A stretch of 21,945 bases of DNA from a virus: the IMG/VR virus record IMGVR_UViG_3300036760_000791, positions 1 through 21,945 of that record; one strand, 5' to 3'. Shown one piece after another: positions 1,518 through 21,945 of the stretch (position 1 is its first letter; every line of letters starts with the position of its first letter). The position numbers were made by a program, and so were the translations under genes. Under the pieces are notes generated by a model. That model was not told the DNA's origin. It did no database searches and saw only the letters and a list, made by a program, of their open reading frames with translations.

Positions 1518-1832
1518 TTAATTCTCCCTTTTTGCTAATAGTACTCCATTTCTATCAATCAAAATACTAGGAATTAGTTTATTAACTTTTCGACTTGGGT
1601 ATTTTAATTTTCTTAATGCTTTTGCTTTTATTTGCCAGATTCGTTCTCGGGTAACATGAAAATGGTCTGCAATTTGTTTTAATGTTTTAGGTTCTTCAAT
1701 GAGACCGAGATACATAGTTAAGACTATTGCTTCTCTTTCTGTAATTATTTTCAGGGCTTTTTCTATTTTATCCTTAATTTCTGGTTCAAGGGTTTTTAAG
1801 ACACGAGAATAGAACCTAGCATTTCCATTCAT
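1518..1832 (-). CDS. Stand-alone sigma-70 region 4 protein (putative phage transcription regulator)
   Basis: A 104-aa protein. Residues 31-80 read as region 4 of primary sigma factors: TEREAIVLTMYLG, then the helix-turn-helix LKQIADHFHVTRERIWQI and the recognition-helix tail KALRKLKYPSR (71-81), close to the VTRERIRQI/KALRKLRHPSR signature of RpoD. In sigma factors this domain contacts the -35 box and the beta-flap of RNA polymerase. Regions 1-3, including the -10-binding region 2, are absent, so it cannot be a complete sigma factor. It may retarget host polymerase to phage promoters, team with a separate region-2 protein, or compete with host sigma. It is the middle gene of a leftward operon, with the upstream TAG abutting its ATG and AGGAAG as ribosome binding site. 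Homology is confident; function is inferred. Confidence 0.85.
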   Translation of the reverse strand: MNGNARFYSRVLKTLEPEIKDKIEKALKIITEREAIVLTMYLGLIEEPKTLKQIADHFHVTRERIWQIKAKALRKLKYPSRKVNKLIPSILIDRNGVLLAKREN

Positions 1833-4562: not shown

Positions 4563-4961
4563 ATGCACGTTTATAGAAAGAAATTTTTGGCATCGGATTT
4601 CACAGTAGCAATTAACAGCACCAAAGTAGATGGAACAGATTTCACATCAGAACAGATTATACTGGGATTTGCCGAAGAGGCATCTCTGACCTTTTTTGTT
4701 AAAGGTGGAAACGCAGGCTGTTCAAAAGATGTTGTATTCAAGTTTGCCTGTTATGATGGCTTGCGGAATAAGTGGGACACCATTGATTATCTTGGTGCGG
4801 GAGCTGGAGTAAGTGTTGCGGCTAATGGAACAACGGAAGTCCAAAAGACAATTTCGTTCGTTCCAAATGTTGAAAAGATAAAATTACTTTCAGTTCAAAA
4901 CCAGGAAACCGTAGCGGGTTACACAGTAGATGTGAATGTTTCGATTTTCATAAAAGCATGA
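4563..4961 (+). CDS. Beta-rich hypothetical protein, possible head decoration or fibre-associated protein
   Basis: A 132-aa protein with AGGAGG 6 bp before its ATG. Alternating hydrophobic and polar residues (ASLTFFVKGG, DVVFKFACYDG, KTISFVP, GYTVDVNVSIFIKA) suggest a single small beta-sandwich with no signal peptide or membrane segment. It resembles the 128-aa protein at 13034-13420 in size, strand pattern and ending (VNVSIFIKA versus FNLYAIVKI), so the two may be distant relatives. It overlaps the following beta-helix gene by 4 bp, so the two products may act together. No family is recognised with certainty. Confidence 0.6.
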   Translation: MHVYRKKFLASDFTVAINSTKVDGTDFTSEQIILGFAEEASLTFFVKGGNAGCSKDVVFKFACYDGLRNKWDTIDYLGAGAGVSVAANGTTEVQKTISFVPNVEKIKLLSVQNQETVAGYTVDVNVSIFIKA

Positions 4962-7321
4962 TGAAAAAATTTCTTGTTTTTATTTCAATTCTATTCTTGG
5001 CCGCCTCTCTCTCTGCCAATCCTGGGACGACTTATTATGTAGATGCCACTGGTGGAAATGACGACAATAACGGCACTTCCACAGAAACACCCTGGAAGAC
5101 TGTCGCCAAGGTTAATGCCTCGTCGTTCTCTGCGGGCGACTCTATCCTATTCAAGCGGGGCGAGATTTGGCGAGAACAACTGACCGTACCCTCCTCCGGC
5201 TCGGCTGGCCTGCCCATTACCTTCGGGGCATATGGGACGACAGGAGCAAATCCAATAATTAACGGGTCTGATTCGATTTCATCGTGGACTCAAGCAACGA
5301 CAAATGTAACCGGAACTGTTACTCAAAGTAATATGAGAATGAGCGTCGTTAATGGAATTGCTTTTACCGATTTTTCTGCCGCCGGAGCATTAACAAATTA
5401 TCTCGGGAACAAGTTGACTATTACAGATAGCACAGGAAAAACACTTGTTGGTTATATAAAGGCGGCGGGGAATGGAGAAACTTATGGGACAGAATTGATT
5501 ACTGCTTGGACAAATATTACCGGCCATACATTTGAAACATTTACCACGTCTGGCTCTACAATAAGCAGCGCTATTGAAACGGGGTCGGATGGGCGGGCGA
5601 GAGTGGATACTTTATCAGTTAATGGACTTCTATTAATGGCCGCGTATAATGTGACCAGAAATAGCGGAACAACACAACCTCAATTAAGATATAATGCAAA
5701 CAGTGATATGGCCGGTGGCGTTGATTGGATAGATTATACCACCATTGGGGCCCAAATTTCTTATTTTACCGGAACGGAATCTCAATATTTTGGATATAGA
5801 ACTGATGCAGCTATTGATTTTTCGGCCACAAATTCTTTAAAACAAGTTATTACCCCCTCTACCACTGGCGTTACTATTACCTCAACGGCTAATGGCGCAA
5901 CATATAACTGGACATCGGAGGATACAGGATTTAATCGCAACGACACCACCTATTCTTATTCTATCGATATTGCCCCTGTCAACGTCTGGCAGGCCACTGT
6001 TAGCACGCAACCCAATCAGGTATTTTTTGATGGAACCCGGGGAACTCTGGAAACTTCTATTTCAAATCTTACTGCCCCCAATGAATGGTATTGGGCTTCA
6101 AATGTTTTATATGTTTATATGTCCGGAGATCCATCGGGTCATATAGAAGCAAGCCAACGAAATACAGCCATTACTATATCTTCCAAAAATTATATAACGG
6201 TTGATGGGATTGATTTAAAGAATGCAAATGCTGATAATTTAAGACTTATCAACGACAGCACGGGAATTACCATTCAAAATTCTGCTATCAGCTATGCCTA
6301 TACGAACGGCATATATTCATATACAACAGGGACGAGTTATAGAGACACTTTACTTATAACTATTAATACCATTTCTTATAACGGGGCAAGCGGAATATTG
6401 CTTAGCGACTATACTAGAAACTCCACCGTTTCTCATAATAATCTCCATCACAATTGTTTAATTCATGCCACCGATGGTTTGCATGAATATTCTGGCGGTA
6501 TTTATGTTGGATTAGGAAATACCTCTGCAATTGTGTCAGAATACAACACTGTTTATAGTAATGGTCTAACCTCAGATACCAATGAAGGGATGGGTATCTG
6601 GTATGACACGATAACGTCTGGTTTGAATTCTATTATCAGATATAATTTGGTTTATAGTAATAGTGATGTGGGAATTCGGTTTGAAAATGTCAATCAAGGA
6701 CAGATGTACTACAATATTTCTTATAGTAATTATGAAGGAATAAGGGTTCATTCTTCTAGTGCTTCATATTCGAACAATACTAACCTCATTTATAATAATA
6801 TGATTTATAATAATACGACTTACGGAATATTTATTCGCGGAGTGAATGGCGTAAATAATCTCCAAAATAATGTTTTTAAAAATAATATTTCTTTAGGCAA
6901 TGGTACCAGTCAATTGCGCGCTACGGTTGGTGGTGACAATAACGGAACAACAGGAAGTGGGAATATTTATACATATAATTCTTTCGGTCTGGAGGCCACC
7001 AATTTTATAGAATGGGGTGCGGGAACATATAAATCTACTTATGCTGATTGGGAAATTGTTTATGGTGGCACAACTCATTCCGTAGAAACTGATCCGCTTA
7101 TGACCGACCCCGCCAATGGCGACTTCACCCTCCAGTCCACCTCCCCCTGCATCAACGCTGGAATGAATGTCGGGCTGACAAGGGATTATGTGGGGAATCC
7201 TGTGCCTTGGGGAAATATCATCTATCCGATAATCTCACCCATTATAATAACACCCATATGGGGGATAATAACCGATGACAAGGTGGACATCGGAGCTTAT
7301 GAATATAACTGGAGAAAATGA
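4958..7321 (+). CDS. Secreted right-handed beta-helix protein with signal peptide
   Basis: A 787-aa protein. Residues 1-20 (MMKKFLVFISILFLAASLSA) are a textbook Sec signal peptide with a likely cleavage before N21. YYVDATGGNDDNNGT and PWKTVAKVN follow, the usual N-terminus of secreted parallel beta-helix proteins (DUF1565-like). The centre, about residues 400-660, carries beta-helix rungs rich in Asn (repeats like 'N.I..N...GI'). The C-terminus, DPLMTDPANGDFTLQSTSP through VDIGAYEY, is the module typical of bacterial secreted beta-helix proteins (choice-of-anchor Q type), but it is interrupted by an extra Ile/Pro-rich stretch. A leader peptide is unexpected in a phage structural cluster. The product may be an exported polysaccharide-binding or -degrading protein changing the infected cell's surface, or a spike with a residual leader. 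Base composition is mosaic. The start lacks a clear ribosome binding site and overlaps the previous stop. Confidence 0.8.
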   Translation: MMKKFLVFISILFLAASLSANPGTTYYVDATGGNDDNNGTSTETPWKTVAKVNASSFSAGDSILFKRGEIWREQLTVPSSGSAGLPITFGAYGTTGANPIINGSDSISSWTQATTNVTGTVTQSNMRMSVVNGIAFTDFSAAGALTNYLGNKLTITDSTGKTLVGYIKAAGNGETYGTELITAWTNITGHTFETFTTSGSTISSAIETGSDGRARVDTLSVNGLLLMAAYNVTRNSGTTQPQLRYNANSDMAGGVDWIDYTTIGAQISYFTGTESQYFGYRTDAAIDFSATNSLKQVITPSTTGVTITSTANGATYNWTSEDTGFNRNDTTYSYSIDIAPVNVWQATVSTQPNQVFFDGTRGTLETSISNLTAPNEWYWASNVLYVYMSGDPSGHIEASQRNTAITISSKNYITVDGIDLKNANADNLRLINDSTGITIQNSAISYAYTNGIYSYTTGTSYRDTLLITINTISYNGASGILLSDYTRNSTVSHNNLHHNCLIHATDGLHEYSGGIYVGLGNTSAIVSEYNTVYSNGLTSDTNEGMGIWYDTITSGLNSIIRYNLVYSNSDVGIRFENVNQGQMYYNISYSNYEGIRVHSSSASYSNNTNLIYNNMIYNNTTYGIFIRGVNGVNNLQNNVFKNNISLGNGTSQLRATVGGDNNGTTGSGNIYTYNSFGLEATNFIEWGAGTYKSTYADWEIVYGGTTHSVETDPLMTDPANGDFTLQSTSPCINAGMNVGLTRDYVGNPVPWGNIIYPIISPIIITPIWGIITDDKVDIGAYEYNWRK

Positions 7322-7778: not shown

Positions 7779-9827
7779 ATGACTGACGAAGAAAAGTTTA
7801 AACCGACTGCAGGCGAAGACCTTCGAGGAGATCGCCGTGAACACTACCAGTTTATCGAGGAAGACTGGCGGTCAAATCCAGTTGTAAAAAACAATCATGG
7901 CTATTGGGAGGAATATATTGCCTGGTTTGAGGGCGATCAATATACCAAGTACATTAAAGCCATTGGAAGTCTTAAATCCATAGAGGCTCAGGTCAAAAGG
8001 GAAACAAAAAATGTTTATAACCGGATTCTCCCGCTTATTCGGCAAATGTGGGGAGAGATCCGATATGTTCATAACTTTTATACGGAGCCTAATACCACAG
8101 AATCAGAAGATGTCAAAGCAGCAAACGTGTCTTCTGCCCTCATTGAATACACAAATTATCTTAGAAATTTTAATTTCAAAATAAACTTTGCCAAGCTTTG
8201 GGCTCTAGTTACAAGTTGTGTTTTCTGGAAGGAATGGTGGAATAGAAACCTTCAAGGTTCAATTCAAGGAGAAAAGGGTCTCGTTGATGTCCAGGGTGAT
8301 ATTGATTATAACTGGGTAAATCCTTTTAATATTCGGCTTGATGCGTTAGCTCAGGGAAGAGAAGAGTGGCGTTATATCATTGAAGGGAAAAGGGTTCCCG
8401 TATCTTCTGTCGAGGATGAATTTGGCCTTCCAAGGGGAACACTTAAACCTGACCCCTGGGAACCAGACTCTGGTCTTTTTGAAAGGACAGAGATGGAAAG
8501 GCCGAAAGAAGAGACAGTCATCAGAAAAGAATATTGGACTATAAAACGTCCAGGATACGAGAAAGGAATCTTTGCGGTTTCAGCGGGTGGCTTTCTTCTT
8601 TATCATAAATCAAATCCAACGCCGAAAGCACAAATCCCATATTTTCTTCTTCCTGGTGCATTGCCAAAACTTGGTGAACAATATGGAGATTCCATGGTTC
8701 GTATTGCTCAGGCAGGTCAACGCCGGTTTAATAAAATCGGTTCTGAAGTTGATGAATATGTCGAGTATTACAAGCCAAAGGCGATGATTCCAAAGAACAG
8801 TCTTAATCCAAGGGAAAAGATTTCTTTTACCAGGGCTGGAACTGACTTTATCGAATATAATCCTGGGTTTGGGACACCTTATTGGCAGAATCCTCCAGCA
8901 TTCCCTGAAATTGCTATCCGATGGCTAACTTTCCAAGAAAAAGAGATTGAGACAGAAACCTCTGTTCGGGAATCAAGCTATGGCCGACTTCCCAAATATT
9001 CTTCTCGTGCTTCTGGAGTTCTTTTTGAAGGATTAAGAGAGCAGGATGTTAAGGTGCTTTTCCCTGTTATTGAGGCTCAAGACATCGAGCTTTCCTCGGC
9101 GATGAAATTAAGGCTCGAAATTATTCAGCAGAAATATGACCTTCCTCGTTTAGTTAAGGTTCTCGGAAGAGATAAAAAGAGAGAGACAGCCTATATCAAA
9201 GGCGCAGAGATAAGAAACAACACAGATGTTAGGGTTCAATCTGGGGTTGATATTATCAGCACAAAACTTGCAAAGAGGGAAGTTGTAATGACTTTGATTG
9301 AGAAGGGCTTAATCACCGATCCGAGAAAAGCCTTTGAGCTTTTAGGCATTAAAACCGTTGAAGAATATATGGCAGAAGAGTTTGTTGATGAGCGTCAGGC
9401 AAATCGTTATGTAGATATTATGAAGAGGAAAGACATTTATATTGCTGTCAATCCTGAAGATAACCATGACATTCATTATCGAATTTTTAACAACTTCAGA
9501 AAATCCGAAGAATTTGAGACTTTACCCAAAAAACGAAAAGAGAATTTTGAAAGGCGGATTGCAGAAATAAAAAGCTTTCAGGCTGGAAAGCCAGGGCCAG
9601 GAGAAGCCGCCAAGGCAAGTCCAGAAGCTACGGTAGGAGCACCTGGACCTGAGGCGGTTCCTGCTGTGGCTGCTCCTGCAACCGTAGCACCAGGACCTGG
9701 TATAGAATTACCTGGTGGCACAGCGGGGACTCCTGGGGCTACGGCTCCAGGAACGGCACCTTCTCCTGAAGAGTTGGCAAGAATTATTTTGGAAGAGACA
9801 ATGCGTCAAGGAGGCGCAGCAGTATGA
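7779..9827 (+). CDS. Portal protein
   Basis: A 682-aa protein, about the length of P22-like portals (roughly 725 aa). The N-terminal half contains the portal-like segment YNRILPLIRQMWGEIRYVHN followed by a helical wing region and EYTNYLRNFNFKINFAKLWA; the middle (about 300-480) includes GEQYGDSMVRIAQAGQRRFN and a segment that would correspond to the long stem helices. Residues 602-682 are a low-complexity Pro/Ala/Gly tail ending in a short amphipathic helix (SPEELARIILEETMRQ). The portal dodecamer forms the DNA entry and exit pore at one capsid vertex and nucleates head assembly. Its position between terminase and scaffold/capsid genes supports the call strongly. The ribosome binding site is weak (GAAGGA). 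Confidence 0.85.
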   Translation: MTDEEKFKPTAGEDLRGDRREHYQFIEEDWRSNPVVKNNHGYWEEYIAWFEGDQYTKYIKAIGSLKSIEAQVKRETKNVYNRILPLIRQMWGEIRYVHNFYTEPNTTESEDVKAANVSSALIEYTNYLRNFNFKINFAKLWALVTSCVFWKEWWNRNLQGSIQGEKGLVDVQGDIDYNWVNPFNIRLDALAQGREEWRYIIEGKRVPVSSVEDEFGLPRGTLKPDPWEPDSGLFERTEMERPKEETVIRKEYWTIKRPGYEKGIFAVSAGGFLLYHKSNPTPKAQIPYFLLPGALPKLGEQYGDSMVRIAQAGQRRFNKIGSEVDEYVEYYKPKAMIPKNSLNPREKISFTRAGTDFIEYNPGFGTPYWQNPPAFPEIAIRWLTFQEKEIETETSVRESSYGRLPKYSSRASGVLFEGLREQDVKVLFPVIEAQDIELSSAMKLRLEIIQQKYDLPRLVKVLGRDKKRETAYIKGAEIRNNTDVRVQSGVDIISTKLAKREVVMTLIEKGLITDPRKAFELLGIKTVEEYMAEEFVDERQANRYVDIMKRKDIYIAVNPEDNHDIHYRIFNNFRKSEEFETLPKKRKENFERRIAEIKSFQAGKPGPGEAAKASPEATVGAPGPEAVPAVAAPATVAPGPGIELPGGTAGTPGATAPGTAPSPEELARIILEETMRQGGAAV

Positions 9828-13485: not shown

Positions 13486-14199
13486 ATGACAAGAGAAGAA
13501 ATTAGAACATATATCCGTACGCTAGCCAATGAGCTTACAGAGGCCCCAGAGGGACTTTTTACTAATGTAGACCTTAATCCTCTTATTAATATCTCCCAGC
13601 GGAATGTTCAACTTGACCTTATGCTGTCTGGCCTTGTCTGGTATTTTAGAAAGTCGGGCTTAATCTCTATTACAAAGGATAAATCAACTTATTCAATCAC
13701 GACCGACCTTTCCATCACAGACCTTCTCTTGATTGAAGAAATCCTTTTCAATGTTGAGGATGAATATAAAAATCCGGTTCCAAAGATAGATATAGACCAG
13801 ACATGGGAATTTGAATTAGAAGATTCAACGGACCCGATAGCTTGGGGAAGGGAAGACAAGGACACGATTTTCGTTATGCCGAAACCGACAACCTCAATCT
13901 CAAATTATTGGAAGATTTATTATTTCAAACGTATTCCTGCACTCAACCATGATACCTCGGATGTTACGCCAAACATAGCAACGCCTCATTTACCAGAGGA
14001 AGCCCATCCTCTTATTGCTTTGGATGTTCTGAAAGACTGGATGATTAGAGATGATGAGGCGATGACACAGATTCTGCTACGTTATGAAGAATGTAAGAAA
14101 AAGGTTGTAGATATTTATTCTATGGCAGAGGGGATGGAGATTCGTCAACGTATCAGCAAGGAAGAAATCACAAAGTTAAGAGGAGATATTTACTATTGA
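13486..14199 (+). CDS. Head-to-tail adaptor (gp4/gp11-like), probable
   Basis: A 237-aa protein with AAGGAGA before its ATG. It opens with a helical segment (MTREEIRTYIRTLANELTEA, then LNPLINISQRNVQLDLMLSG), followed by a beta-rich middle (SITKDKSTYSITTDLS, IFVMPKPTTSISNYWKIYYF) and closes with helices (PLIALDVLKDWMIRDDEAMT and a Glu/Lys-rich tail). This helix-beta-helix plan and the place between capsid and nozzle genes fit the adaptor ring of short-tailed phages (P22 gp4, T7 gp11 type), which attaches beneath the portal and recruits the nozzle. Its stop overlaps the next start. The call depends on context more than on a signature motif. Confidence 0.65.
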   Translation: MTREEIRTYIRTLANELTEAPEGLFTNVDLNPLINISQRNVQLDLMLSGLVWYFRKSGLISITKDKSTYSITTDLSITDLLLIEEILFNVEDEYKNPVPKIDIDQTWEFELEDSTDPIAWGREDKDTIFVMPKPTTSISNYWKIYYFKRIPALNHDTSDVTPNIATPHLPEEAHPLIALDVLKDWMIRDDEAMTQILLRYEECKKKVVDIYSMAEGMEIRQRISKEEITKLRGDIYY

Positions 14200-17100
14200 A
14201 AACCTTTAGCAAAATAGAAGTGCGGGACTTGGGTGGTGGACTGGATGAACTTTCGAGCCCTACAGATGTTCCGATTAGGGGTGCAATCAAGCTTGAAAAT
14301 TGGCGAGTTTCTGAGGATGGAAAAAGCAAGGAAAAACGCAAAGGACTTACAAAGCTAGATAGCATTTATAATTTTGGAGAGAAGAAGATATTCGGCACCT
14401 TTGGAATAACTGAGCAAGACCAGACTAAGATTGCAGCCTTCCTGGAAGATAAGATTTGGCTAAAATCGGGGGCACAATGGACTGAGCTTTTCTCTCCCAC
14501 AAAACAGATAGATAGACCAGTTTCAGTTGTGAAAGATAAAGGCTTAACCTTCATTGCTGGTTATGAGAAGCCTATAACTATTAAAGAAAATTCTGCATTT
14601 TATTCAGGAATTGAAGCACCACAGACAGCACCAACAGTTGGGGTTCAAAGTGCAACTACAGACGAAAAAATACTTGAATATCCAGATTCAAATCAAGACT
14701 ACTGCGGGGCACTTCGGTCTTTGGCAGCACAAACTTTGCTTGCTCAGTCTTTTAAAATTTCATCTTCAAACCAGGTTACAAAAGTAACCTTGAAATTAAG
14801 GAAAAGGGGAAGCCCAACGGGGAATGTCTGGGTAGAGATTCACAGTTCTCAGGCTGGCACTTCGGGAACGAAAAATGCCTCTACAAATATTGTAGGTCAA
14901 GGCTCGGATAATATAAATGTCAGCACTATAGCGACTAGCTATACGAGTTATAATTTTACTTTCTCAGGGACAAAACCTTCACTTTCAGCGAACACGACCT
15001 ATTACCTTGTGCTTTATGGCGACTTCGCTGTCTCAACCACAAATTATGTGGATACAGGATTTGATTCAAGCAGTGCAAGTTATTCGGATGGAAGATACTG
15101 GGAGATAAATGGAAGCTATGGATGGAATTCTTATGGAGATTCAATAAGCCTGGTTTTTGAAGTTTATGGGACAAGCACTTTTACGGGAGAGGTGCTTTCC
15201 TACGGAGCACTCGAAACTGGCGATTATCAGCCTCTCAATTATCCCTATACCACGAATTTATTAAACGCTCAAAGTTTTAAACTTTCGGCAGCAACAGAAG
15301 TCTCAAAGATAAAAATTGCGATAAAAAAGCAGTGTTTCTATATAGGCTGGGATTGGTTGTGTCCAACTGGAAACCTATGGGCAGAAATTCATAGCTCTCA
15401 AGTCGGGACATCTCCGACAAAAGGTGCTTCTACAAATATCGTAGGTCAGCCATCTGCCGATGTTTCGATAGCTGGAATAAACGAATATTATGAATGGGTA
15501 GAATTTAATTTTACTGGGACGAAGCCTTCGCTTTCAGCCGCCACGACTTATTATCTTGTTATTTACGGTTCTTATGTACAGCAACCAACCAATAATTATC
15601 ATGTTCGCTGGACAGAGCAGGTTGGCTCATATACGGATGGCAAGAATTGGGTAGTTGATAACTCGATGGTTTGGCACGAGATAGGCTCCAACGAAGACCA
15701 GTCATTCAAAATTATAGGGACACAGACGGGAGAGGGGGTAATTGCCACTTATGCTTTTTCAAATATAGATGACATTAAAGAATTAAGACAGACAACTGCT
15801 ACTGCTCTTATTGCTCAAGCTTTTACTGTAGATGTTGCTTATGAAATATCCAAGGTTAAGCTTTATCTCTCAAAACAAGGAACGCCAGCAACGAATGTCT
15901 GGGCAGAGATTCATAAGGCTCAGGGAGGAACATCGCTTACTAAAGGAGCTTCCACGAACATTGTCGGAGGAGCATCTGACAATGTCGCCATTACAGGTAT
16001 TTCAGCCTTCCCGACCTATGGCTGGATAACATTCACTTTTTCAGGCACAAAGCCTTCTCTAAGCTCGGGCACAACTTATTATCTTGTCCTCTATGGAGAC
16101 TATACAATAGATGGGACTAATTATGTCTATGTAGGCCAGGACAAGATAGATCCTACTTTTGAATCTGGAGAGAGATGGGATATTTCAAGTGCCCTGGTTT
16201 GGACAAAGAGAGAGAGCATAGATTTGATATTTGAAATTTATGCACTGACGGCAGTTCTTAATGGCGATTATTCTTTCAGGGTTACTTTTTATCGTGGAGG
16301 AAACTATCCTTGCGAAAGCAATCCTTCTCCAGCATCGGCTAAAGTAACAATCACTTCTTCTCCCAAACAACAATTTATTTTATCAAACATTCCCATATCT
16401 TCAGAGGAAGAAGTTACGGCACGAAGGATTTACAGGACAAACGCGGGAGGGGCAATTTATTTCTGGGATTTTGATATTCTTGATAACACAACTACCACAG
16501 TAACAGATAGCCATCCAGATGATAGCTTAGGCGAGGAGGTAAGTTATGAAAGCTATCCTCCACCCGAAGGCGATATGATTGAATTCTTTGATGAACGTCT
16601 CTGGGTTTCTGGGGTTCCTGAACATCCAGAGGCTCTTTTCCCTTCCAGGCTAGGTTACCCAGAGCAATTCCCATCACCAGCAACAGACTATTTTCCGCTT
16701 AGAGAAGATGAGACAGAAAAGATAGTTCGCCACAAAGAATTTAAAAACAGTCTTTATGCTTTCAAGGCAAATTCAATTTGGGTGGTGTCGAGAAGTGGTG
16801 ATTTTTATGAAACAGATAGAATCGTGACAGGGAAGGGCTTGGGTGCAGCGGCCAGTCTTGTGGAATGTGATAATAATTTAATTTTTCTTTCTAATCTCTA
16901 CAAGATTGAGATATTTGATGGTGTTAATTTTGCTACACCCAGGTTGACAGATAAAGCGAGAGAAACGCTTGAAAGCATAAACAAAGATTTTGCCTATAGG
17001 TCAACGGCTGAAAATTATGTTCTCAAATCTGAATATAGGCTTGCAATACCAACTGGCACAAGCCAGGTTCCAGATAAGGTTATTGTCTATAATTATCTGA

Positions 17101-17597
17101 CAGGAAATATTGCTGTTGATAAATATCATCAGAAAATCTGCTCAATAAACTCAGTGGATATTACTGGGTCAGAAAGGGTGATGATTTATGGGACAGAGAA
17201 AGGTCAGATTTATAAGGTAGATGAGAATGCGGTGAAAGACGATGACCAGGCAATAGAAGCAACCTATAAAACAGGATGGATAGGTGATGAAACCTGGACA
17301 ATTCTAAGACGTTTCTTCCTGGATTTCATCTTATCTTCTGGCAAAAGTATGATTTTTAAGATTTATAAAAACTTTTCACAGACTCCAGCATTGACAAAGA
17401 CAATAAACGGCTCAACGCCGACAGGCGCAGATCCGACCTTGAGGGATGTTATTCATCAGATAATTAGCCTGGCAGTTCAAGGGAATTATTTTTCTTTTGA
17501 GTTTATAAATGTTGACGATCCAGAGGAATTAAAAATTTTAGATTTTATCCTTTACATAAAAAAACGCCACCCTCGTGGGAGTATAAAGGCGGCATAA
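14196..17597 (+). CDS. Tail nozzle-like protein with three inserted jelly-roll-like repeats
   Basis: A 1133-aa protein started by TTG at 14196, which overlaps the previous stop (TTGA) and has AGAGGAGAT upstream; no ATG is better placed. Residues 1-150 and about 685-1133 resemble the beta-propeller-type nozzle of short-tailed phages (P22 gp10, T7 gp12 type): DVPIRGAIKLENWRVSEDG near the start, FFDERLWVSGVPEHPE, then NSLYAFKANSIWVVSRSGDF and LIFLSNLYKIEIFDG blades. Between them are three related ~145-150-residue units (about 180-325, 356-507, 538-682), each reading AQ(S/A)F, V/K-strands, 'PTGN(V/L)W(A/V)EIHSSQ', 'ASTNIVG', 'F(S/T)GTKPSLS..TTYYLV(L/I)YG', resembling choice-of-anchor R/carbohydrate-binding jelly rolls. 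An Fn3-like stretch (690-770) follows. The repeats probably add surface or receptor binding to the tail tip. Nozzle identity is moderate; the repeats are certain. Confidence 0.72.
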   Translation: MKTFSKIEVRDLGGGLDELSSPTDVPIRGAIKLENWRVSEDGKSKEKRKGLTKLDSIYNFGEKKIFGTFGITEQDQTKIAAFLEDKIWLKSGAQWTELFSPTKQIDRPVSVVKDKGLTFIAGYEKPITIKENSAFYSGIEAPQTAPTVGVQSATTDEKILEYPDSNQDYCGALRSLAAQTLLAQSFKISSSNQVTKVTLKLRKRGSPTGNVWVEIHSSQAGTSGTKNASTNIVGQGSDNINVSTIATSYTSYNFTFSGTKPSLSANTTYYLVLYGDFAVSTTNYVDTGFDSSSASYSDGRYWEINGSYGWNSYGDSISLVFEVYGTSTFTGEVLSYGALETGDYQPLNYPYTTNLLNAQSFKLSAATEVSKIKIAIKKQCFYIGWDWLCPTGNLWAEIHSSQVGTSPTKGASTNIVGQPSADVSIAGINEYYEWVEFNFTGTKPSLSAATTYYLVIYGSYVQQPTNNYHVRWTEQVGSYTDGKNWVVDNSMVWHEIGSNEDQSFKIIGTQTGEGVIATYAFSNIDDIKELRQTTATALIAQAFTVDVAYEISKVKLYLSKQGTPATNVWAEIHKAQGGTSLTKGASTNIVGGASDNVAITGISAFPTYGWITFTFSGTKPSLSSGTTYYLVLYGDYTIDGTNYVYVGQDKIDPTFESGERWDISSALVWTKRESIDLIFEIYALTAVLNGDYSFRVTFYRGGNYPCESNPSPASAKVTITSSPKQQFILSNIPISSEEEVTARRIYRTNAGGAIYFWDFDILDNTTTTVTDSHPDDSLGEEVSYESYPPPEGDMIEFFDERLWVSGVPEHPEALFPSRLGYPEQFPSPATDYFPLREDETEKIVRHKEFKNSLYAFKANSIWVVSRSGDFYETDRIVTGKGLGAAASLVECDNNLIFLSNLYKIEIFDGVNFATPRLTDKARETLESINKDFAYRSTAENYVLKSEYRLAIPTGTSQVPDKVIVYNYLTGNIAVDKYHQKICSINSVDITGSERVMIYGTEKGQIYKVDENAVKDDDQAIEATYKTGWIGDETWTILRRFFLDFILSSGKSMIFKIYKNFSQTPALTKTINGSTPTGADPTLRDVIHQIISLAVQGNYFSFEFINVDDPEELKILDFILYIKKRHPRGSIKAA
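14733..16241 (+). repeat. Three tandem protein repeats inside the nozzle-like gene
   Basis: Units lie at about 14733-15170, 15261-15716 and 15807-16241, with a period of about 540 bp. The core 'GTKPSLS' and 'STNIVG' segments are the same in all three at protein level while the DNA has diverged at many third positions, so the duplications are not recent. Unit 2 holds an extra loop (CFYIGWDWLCP) with two cysteines. Confidence 0.85.
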
Positions 17598-20235: not shown

Positions 20236-20736
20236 ATGGCATTCAATTATGCAAACTCACCTTGGTGGAATTCACCAAAAGCAGCACCAGGGAATTATGG
20301 TAACTTGGGTTCTATTCTTGGAGCATTGAATACAGGAGGTACGGCGGGTACGGCCGCCGCCACAACTGCAAGCGGATTCCCCTGGTCTGTCCTCATTGCT
20401 GTTCTTGGTTCATTGCTGCCCTCTTTGGGGATTTTCGGAGGAGAAAGTGAAGAAGAGAAAAGCAGAAGGGAATTTGAACAGCAGAAGGAACTTATTAAGA
20501 TGCTCTTAGCCTGGCAGAATCCTACCTACAGAAGCCCTTATATCCCTGGTGTTGACAAGACGATGGTTCAGGCTTTGATGAACCAGATGAAGAGAAGTGC
20601 AAACTGGGGTTATCCAGCAGGGATGCAGATGGATACAAGCTTTATTGATGAATTTCTGAAGGCTATCCCGACCATTCCCCAAAACACTGGAGGAGTGACA
20701 AATCCACTTCCTGGAGGGGTAAGACTGAAATATTAA
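20236..20736 (+). CDS. Hypothetical virion protein with hydrophobic central segment
   Basis: A 166-aa protein. The start at ATG 20236 is chosen because AAGGAGGT lies 6 bases upstream and the preceding stop is at 20232-20234; an in-frame ATG at 20203 would overlap the previous gene by 32 bp without such a site. Residues 1-47 are Asn/Gly/Ala/Ser-rich (MAFNYANSPWWNSPKAAPGN), residues 48-70 are a hydrophobic stretch (FPWSVLIAVLGSLLPSLGIF), then come an acidic helix and an Asn/Pro-rich C-terminus. This layout is common among small ejection or internal virion proteins of short-tailed phages that enter the host membrane, but no family is recognised. Confidence 0.6.
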   Translation: MAFNYANSPWWNSPKAAPGNYGNLGSILGALNTGGTAGTAAATTASGFPWSVLIAVLGSLLPSLGIFGGESEEEKSRREFEQQKELIKMLLAWQNPTYRSPYIPGVDKTMVQALMNQMKRSANWGYPAGMQMDTSFIDEFLKAIPTIPQNTGGVTNPLPGGVRLKY

Positions 20737-20748
20737 AGGAGGCCGAAA

Positions 20749-21945
20749 ATGGCAACCTGGAATGATTACGATTCTCTGACATACAAAAACGTTTATGATT
20801 TACTATCCAGGGTGAAAACACCAGCAGCACAGGTATCGCCGTCACCTTCAGGCACAGTTCTGAAATCGCCAACGGGAACAACTTTGGCTCCAGCTAATAC
20901 AGGCATACCGAGAGTTGCCACGCCAACGCCCGATGCTGCTTGTAATAATCTTTGTCAGAAAAATGGTTATGCAAGCGGCCGGTCAAATATTCCCACTGAT
21001 TGTGTAGCTAACGAGCACTTTGTAGATGGCCCTTCAGGAGCTACATATGATTGTTGCTGTAAAGAGAAGGGAACAGGTCCTTGTTTGAATGGTTATTCAC
21101 TAGAGGCTGGTGATCAATGTAAAAAGGGATATGAAATCAAAAAAGACTCAGAAGGTAAGGAATGGTGTTGTCCTATAGCAGGGGTATATCCATGTTCCAC
21201 TACAGGTGGTTATTTAGGACAGCAAATTAAAGATGAAAAAGGTAATTGGCATCTATTAAAAAAATGTGATAATGGCTATGAAGACAAGAAGGCTACAGAC
21301 GGTAAAATATGGTGTTGTCCAATACCAGAAAATGTTTCCTGTAAAGATAATTCAAATTGTCCCGAAGGTTATCACTGTAATACAAAAACAGGAAAATGCG
21401 AACTAAATCCAAATGTAACAAAATGCACAAAGCCAGAAGATTGTGCAACTTTTTGTGACGGCCAACCAGGAATTTGTTCTGAGGGCTTTTGTCGCTGCAC
21501 GGGTGAAGTTCCTGGCGAGTGCGATGACCAGCATCCTTGTCCAGCTGGATATGCTTGTGTTGAAGAACCAGTTACGGCAGGAAATGTTGGTGTTGCACCA
21601 AAAAAGCACTGCGTTAAGACAGGTGTCTGTGCTGAAGGAAAAGGAGCGGAATATACAGGTTGTGCATGTGGAAAATTTTATGCAACGAAAACAGGTATTT
21701 GCGAACCTGGATATGTTTTTATAGCAAGAGCAGGGACCGGATGGGAAGGATATATACCAGGCGCAAAAGGCCGTTGCGAATGTTCAAAGTGGTGTCAAGA
21801 TACAGGTTGGGGGTCAGATTGTCAGGGTGGTGGTGGAGGCGGTGAATTTAAGTGGAGTCCAGAACTTGAAGCATTAATGAAACAGCTTATAGAAAGGGCT
21901 GGCTATCTTCTCAAATATCCTACAGGGTTAACACCAGAAGAGCAA
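20749..21945 (+). CDS. Cysteine-rich multi-module protein (partial, runs off window)
   Basis: An open frame from ATG 20749 (AAAGGAGG about 7 bases upstream) to the window end: 399 residues with no stop. Residues 1-63 are a helical start (TYKNVYDLLSRVKT) plus a Ser/Pro/Thr linker. Residues 65-358 contain 36 cysteines in short modules: CCC (102-104), two copies of a 20-residue unit ending WCCPI (124-143, 173-192; 13 of 20 identical), then EGF/granulin-like knots such as CPEGYHC, CSEGFCRC and CPAGYAC. A Gly-rich hinge (360-365) leads to an acidic helix (SPELEALMKQLIERAGYLLK). Disulphide-rich modules are more usual in extracellular proteins; here the gene sits in the tail operon with no signal peptide. 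It is probably a virion fibre or surface-binding protein whose cysteines oxidise after lysis, but this is inference. No family is recognised. Confidence 0.8.
   Translation, partial: MATWNDYDSLTYKNVYDLLSRVKTPAAQVSPSPSGTVLKSPTGTTLAPANTGIPRVATPTPDAACNNLCQKNGYASGRSNIPTDCVANEHFVDGPSGATYDCCCKEKGTGPCLNGYSLEAGDQCKKGYEIKKDSEGKEWCCPIAGVYPCSTTGGYLGQQIKDEKGNWHLLKKCDNGYEDKKATDGKIWCCPIPENVSCKDNSNCPEGYHCNTKTGKCELNPNVTKCTKPEDCATFCDGQPGICSEGFCRCTGEVPGECDDQHPCPAGYACVEEPVTAGNVGVAPKKHCVKTGVCAEGKGAEYTGCACGKFYATKTGICEPGYVFIARAGTGWEGYIPGAKGRCECSKWCQDTGWGSDCQGGGGGGEFKWSPELEALMKQLIERAGYLLKYPTGLTPEEQ

Follow-up and report, generated by a model that had tools for sequence, protein, structure and literature searches.

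Among the closest described systems for the gene analysed here are the ejection cassettes of the short-tailed phages T7 (gp14, gp15 and gp16) and P22 (gp7, gp16 and gp20), and the layout of the T7 gp14-gp16 cassette served as our comparison (PMC8954989). The word cysteine is absent from this review of ejection proteins. Disulphides do occur in mature phage tails, as seen in the structure of a crassvirus (PMC10172136). Disulphide-rich, animal-like mini-domains are unexpected where assembly occurs in the reducing cytoplasm, and we found no report of granulin-like modules or of an array of cysteine-rich modules in phages in the open-access literature.

Cysteine content and a granulin-like unit

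The window, i. e. the whole stretch of 21,945 bases of viral DNA that was analysed, ends within the gene for a cysteine-rich modular protein. The open reading frame (20749-21945, plus strand) comprises 399 open codons and runs past the end of the record, which has only 21,945 bases. The gene, its upstream region and its modules are laid out as follows:

20236..20736, plus strand: neighbour gene for a protein with a hydrophobic segment; it adjoins the cysteine-rich gene in every homologue
20736..20742, plus strand: Shine-Dalgarno sequence AAGGAGG, 6 bases 5' of the ATG (sequence inspection)
20749..21945, plus strand: gene for the cysteine-rich modular protein, 399 codons, 3' end missing; the homologues have 322-458 amino acids
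20749..20940, plus strand: residues 1-64, N-terminal tail rich in Pro, Ser and Thr, without cysteine
20941..21822, plus strand: residues 65-358, holding 36 of 36 cysteines
21118..21195, plus strand: residues 124-149, first unit of the type C..GYE.KK...GK.WCCPI...C, which by eye resembles the granulin-like unit that follows
21265..21402, plus strand: residues 173-218, granulin-like unit C..WCCP..C..CPxGYxC..C (Pfam Granulin, phmmer)
21520..21612, plus strand: residues 258-288, EB/DUF7107-like unit CxxxxxCPxGYxC...C (motif; Pfam matches below the cut-off in G010)
21628..21783, plus strand: residues 294-345, juxta-linker module with six cysteines, C..CxC..C..GY..CxC, aligned with G012, G013 and G014
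21826..21843, plus strand: residues 360-365, poly-Gly linker; a Gly-rich linker is likewise present in G010, G014 and G015
21844..21945, plus strand: residues 366-399, beginning of the helical C-terminal domain (truncated), by homology to G010

As stated in the original prediction, the gene has a good ribosome binding site and a frame that stays open to the end of the record. Moreover, a count confirmed the 36 cysteines, from the first at residue 65 to the last at residue 358, and all the motifs that had been described for them: CC, one CCC (residues 102-104), CxC and two CPxGYxC. Cysteine accounts for 9.0% of this protein as compared to 0-2.2% for the 20 other genes of the window.

The modules had been proposed to be EGF- or granulin-like, and it is the granulin part of this proposal that stood. 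The Pfam family Granulin (PF00396) matches residues 182-218 (E 2.8e-7; 31.1 bits at a cut-off of 20.9), and no Pfam family was matched at E<=1 by eight shuffled versions of residues 65-358, four of which retained every cysteine at its position. The EGF reading was rejected, since the Pfam search of the window protein at E<=1 returned zero EGF families. In a phmmer search against the PDB, granulin A (2jye) and granulin-5 were matched with E values of 0.014 and 0.018, respectively. Modelled with AlphaFold2 from the single sequence, the segment 160-222 contains two beta-hairpins (pLDDT 74.7); its top PDB match is granulin A at a non-significant level (E 0.07, TM 0.29), and the predicted structure is only consistent with the granulin result obtained from the sequence. 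Residues 182-218 share the order and spacing CCP..C..CPxGYxC..C with Granulin (PF00396; human granulin A). Whereas granulins have 12 cysteines including four central CC pairs, the phage unit has seven (C173, CC189-190, C198, C204, C210 and C217) with one CC: two CC pairs are reduced to single cysteines, others are lost, and the full granulin pattern is absent from residues 173-218. Unlike granulin proteins, the window protein has no evident signal peptide and is encoded in a phage structural operon. Searches of this protein against PHROG and NCBIfam gave no match.

Homologues and the conserved helical domain

A direct search of viral_contigs with the window protein found nothing, and a DNA pattern search for WCCP..CPxGY gave no match. 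Relatives were reached through an alignment of the portal, which identified close phages including G010, and through the neighbour gene, which led to G012, G013, G014 and G015. When the C-terminal domain was used to scan viral_contigs, the records of these five IMG/VR homologues were returned, and scans of genome_contigs with this domain and with the portal found no relative; the scan works by short peptide patterns, and distant members may escape it. The homologue in G010 (IMGVR 3300031999_000076) has 357 amino acids and is 54% identical to residues 353-398 of the window protein (E 5e-8).

All six proteins are built alike, with an N-terminal tail, a cysteine-rich region and then no further cysteine. 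In the five homologues, which have complete 3' ends, the cysteine region leads into a conserved, mostly helical and cysteine-free domain of about 140-210 residues, and a Gly-rich linker between the two is usual, not universal. The totals of cysteines in the six proteins (36, 22, 10, 10, 22 and 24) are all even, a tally in which the G012/G013 and G014/G015 pairs are not independent. By eye, four types of modules can be told apart across the window protein and its homologues. The WCCP granulin-like unit is found in the window protein only among the six sequences, CxxDxDCPxGxxCxxGxC units are present in the window protein, G010, G014 and G015, and twin CX3C hairpins occur in G012, G013 and G015 and in a looser form in G010. 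Units of this CxxDxDCPxGxxCxxGxC type, for example in G010, are matched weakly, below the cut-off, by the Pfam families DUF7107, Dickkopf_N and EB. The juxta-linker module is kept in four of the five homologues: it can be aligned in G012, G013 and G014, and it is present in G015. Between G012 and G013, 10 of 10 cysteines are retained, and a dN/dS of 0.17 indicates that the cysteine half is under purifying selection. The original prediction had named a lack of cysteine conservation among homologues as evidence against it; we observed conservation, both in this pair and for the six cysteines aligned in the window protein and G012-G014.

For the full C-terminal domain of G010, a largely helical structure is predicted, with pLDDT values of 71-82 around residues 221-270. 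The model of the whole protein is poor (pLDDT 44.7), and only this helical part of it can be interpreted. The best profile scores of the domain were obtained for PHROG 10969 (unknown function; E 0.0014) and for an 'internal head protein' (E 0.44). A Foldseek search with the helical domain gave matches, none of them significant, and there was no match of the C-terminal domain to fibre or receptor-binding proteins. Because of the operon position, homology to the proteins located at the same place in the actinophages Shocker, DS1 and Jasmine had been expected, but hhalign did not support it (probability about 1%).

Gene order and differences between sister phages

The prediction that the cysteine-rich gene encodes a phage late-operon protein is supported by our analysis. 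Portal and adaptor of the window match the P22-type portal and SU10 adaptor families (Pfam), and the spike that had been proposed as an operon neighbour was confirmed by profile searches. The neighbour that had been labelled a glycosidase had no match in Pfam, PHROG or NCBIfam. In G010 and G014, the nozzle is followed by fibre or other tail genes, the hydrophobic-segment protein and the cysteine-rich protein. The protein directly past the latter is helical and has about 300-420 amino acids; beyond the cysteine-rich gene, one or two further proteins are followed by a protein of about 1900 amino acids and then by a murein hydrolase (an M15 peptidase in G010, an SLT transglycosylase in G014). This context of giant protein and hydrolase was seen in these two relatives; the window stops before that part.

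Some other genes of these phages show peculiarities of their own. The nozzle-like protein of the window (14196-17597) has 1133 amino acids versus 684 in G010; its centre contains an insert of about 540 amino acids, in which three similar stretches can be recognized by eye. Between terminase and portal (4958-7321), the window encodes a 787-amino acid protein that appears to have a signal peptide and that carries a choice-of-anchor Q domain as well as a match of the lacto-N-biosidase type in its N-terminal part; its homologue in L013 is located downstream of the capsid gene. In G014 (L103), a nearly identical 99-base segment is present at 8032-8130 and 9292-9390, shared by two cassette genes that lie next to each other. 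Finally, a 104-amino acid protein encoded on the minus strand of the window (1518-1832) resembles, by eye, sigma-factor region 4, and this suggests a bacterial host; no tRNA clues to the host were found.

The structural operons of the sister phages G014 and G015 (about 20 kb, positions 19,667-39,723 of the G014 sequence in reversed orientation) are about 95-98% identical, and they contain only two long stretches that cannot be aligned, i. e. the C-terminus of the tail fibre and the cysteine modules. The remaining differences between the two phages fall outside this operon. In the tail fibre, a protein of 1,282 amino acids that carries NHL repeats and a Peptidase_S74 chaperone, the difference covers 1,249 bases of the C-terminal part. 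In the cysteine region of this one pair of phages, 132 bases in the interior are replaced in frame between nearly identical flanks, with a shared GGCGGC tract along one border, and the terminal repeat or ends of the G015 contig lie inside the cysteine-rich gene. G015 might be a chimeric assembly of strains; even if this were the case, both module variants would still exist in nature. That the sister phages differ in the cysteine domains and in the fibre tip suggests, at the level of sequence comparison, that the cysteine domains may touch the host cell.

Possible role and comparison with known systems

With a probability of about one half, we favour the idea that the cysteine-rich protein belongs to the virion as part of the ejection cassette, and that it has a disulphide-rich head which makes contact with the host and can be exchanged. 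The helical C-terminal domain would anchor the protein in the virion of a short-tailed phage, most likely together with the ejection proteins. In front of it, usually across the Gly-rich linker, there would be a variable array of disulphide-stabilised mini-domains consisting of granulin-like units, EB/DUF7107-like units, twin CX3C hairpins and the conserved juxta-linker module. The cysteines may be kept reduced during assembly in the cytoplasm and form their bonds later, either once the cell has lysed or once the protein has been ejected into the oxidising envelope space; this would explain how a protein assembled under reducing conditions can come to have disulphides. The head would then contact a component of the host envelope, and it may be exchanged as a cassette upon a change of the host. 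This idea is supported by the Granulin match with its clean shuffles, the five homologues of like architecture, the even cysteine counts, the low dN/dS, the position in the cassette, and the two-site difference between G014 and G015. Since the helical domain has no significant sequence match to known ejection proteins, membership in this group is not established. A more specific scenario, in which the protein passes the portal with reduced cysteines, folds into granulin-like disulphide domains in the oxidising host envelope and selects the host there by its exchangeable head, is rather doubtful.

The original prediction had considered a redox-switched adhesin or a fibre maturing outside the cell. 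A role in host contact fits the module exchange between the sister phages; the operon position and the helical C-terminal domain point away from a fibre and towards the ejection cassette. It is possible, although somewhat unlikely, that the protein is an external adhesin located by the fibre at the tail tip, with its helical domain docked to the tail and its cysteine head bound to the surface of the cell, and without any ejection. The coincidence of the module difference with that in the tail-fibre C-terminus would fit this arrangement, and the Gly-rich linkers recall the framework of gp38-type adhesins; however, the gene resides in a cassette with a giant protein and a murein hydrolase, and the helical domain gave no match to fibre or receptor-binding proteins.

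Recombination driven by G-rich linker DNA could also shuffle the modules neutrally, as tolerated spacers without specific function. The wide differences in module content and the GGCGGC tract at one side of the differing segment can be read in this way, but the frame and the even cysteine number are preserved, all cysteines are kept between G012 and G013 at the dN/dS given above, and the juxta-linker module persists although the C-terminal domains are only 35% identical. We regard neutral shuffling as improbable. Most improbable is the proposed metal-binding protein in which the cysteines would coordinate zinc or a different metal instead of forming disulphides, acting inside the cell or the capsid. 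Thiols do stay reduced in cytoplasmic assembly, and G014 and G015 have one or two CxxC motifs; yet this motif is absent from the window protein (0 versus about 3.3 expected from shuffles, p about 0.03), G010, G012 and G013, the Pfam search of the window protein matched none of the zinc-binding families, there are few histidines, the cysteine counts are even, and the families that were matched are disulphide domains.

If the preferred reading of an ejection-cassette protein with an exchangeable head is true, these phages would vary at a second site that has so far gone unnoticed, in addition to the tail fibre, and the protein would be a test case for the timing of disulphide formation in phage proteins. 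With T7 gp14/15/16 and P22 gp7/16/20, it shares the position after the nozzle, the small neighbour with a hydrophobic segment and a helical domain, and the relatives G010 and G014 have the giant protein and the murein hydrolase next to it as in these cassettes; the likeness does not extend to a significant sequence or fold match with podophage ejection proteins. The gp38-type tail-fibre adhesins of T-even phages have a glycine-rich framework and exchangeable host-contact segments. The cysteine-rich protein would be analogous in combining such segments with Gly-rich stretches, whereas the gp38-type adhesins are not cysteine-rich and have another fold and another location. Repeats of the CxxDxDCPxGYxCxxGxC type joined to a virion-protein domain are found in two further viruses. 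In the Synechococcus phage S-SCSM2R (L005:1105-3528), three tandem CxxDxDCPxGYxC repeats are part of a gp5-like baseplate hub/lysozyme protein. In the ANMV-1 virus (KP703175.1, L008:5868-9368), AJP62007 has 1166 amino acids with about 167 cysteines in DCPxGYxC-type repeats, and its end has a motif like that of minor head proteins (match to PHROG 4728, head morphogenesis, at E 2.5e-5); the paper on ANMV-1 does not use the word cysteine in its main text. The C-terminal domain of the family described here is shared by neither the baseplate hub nor the minor-head-like protein. Given that comparable repeats occur in these two viruses, the theme of cysteine-rich repeats on virion proteins may be wider than this phage family.
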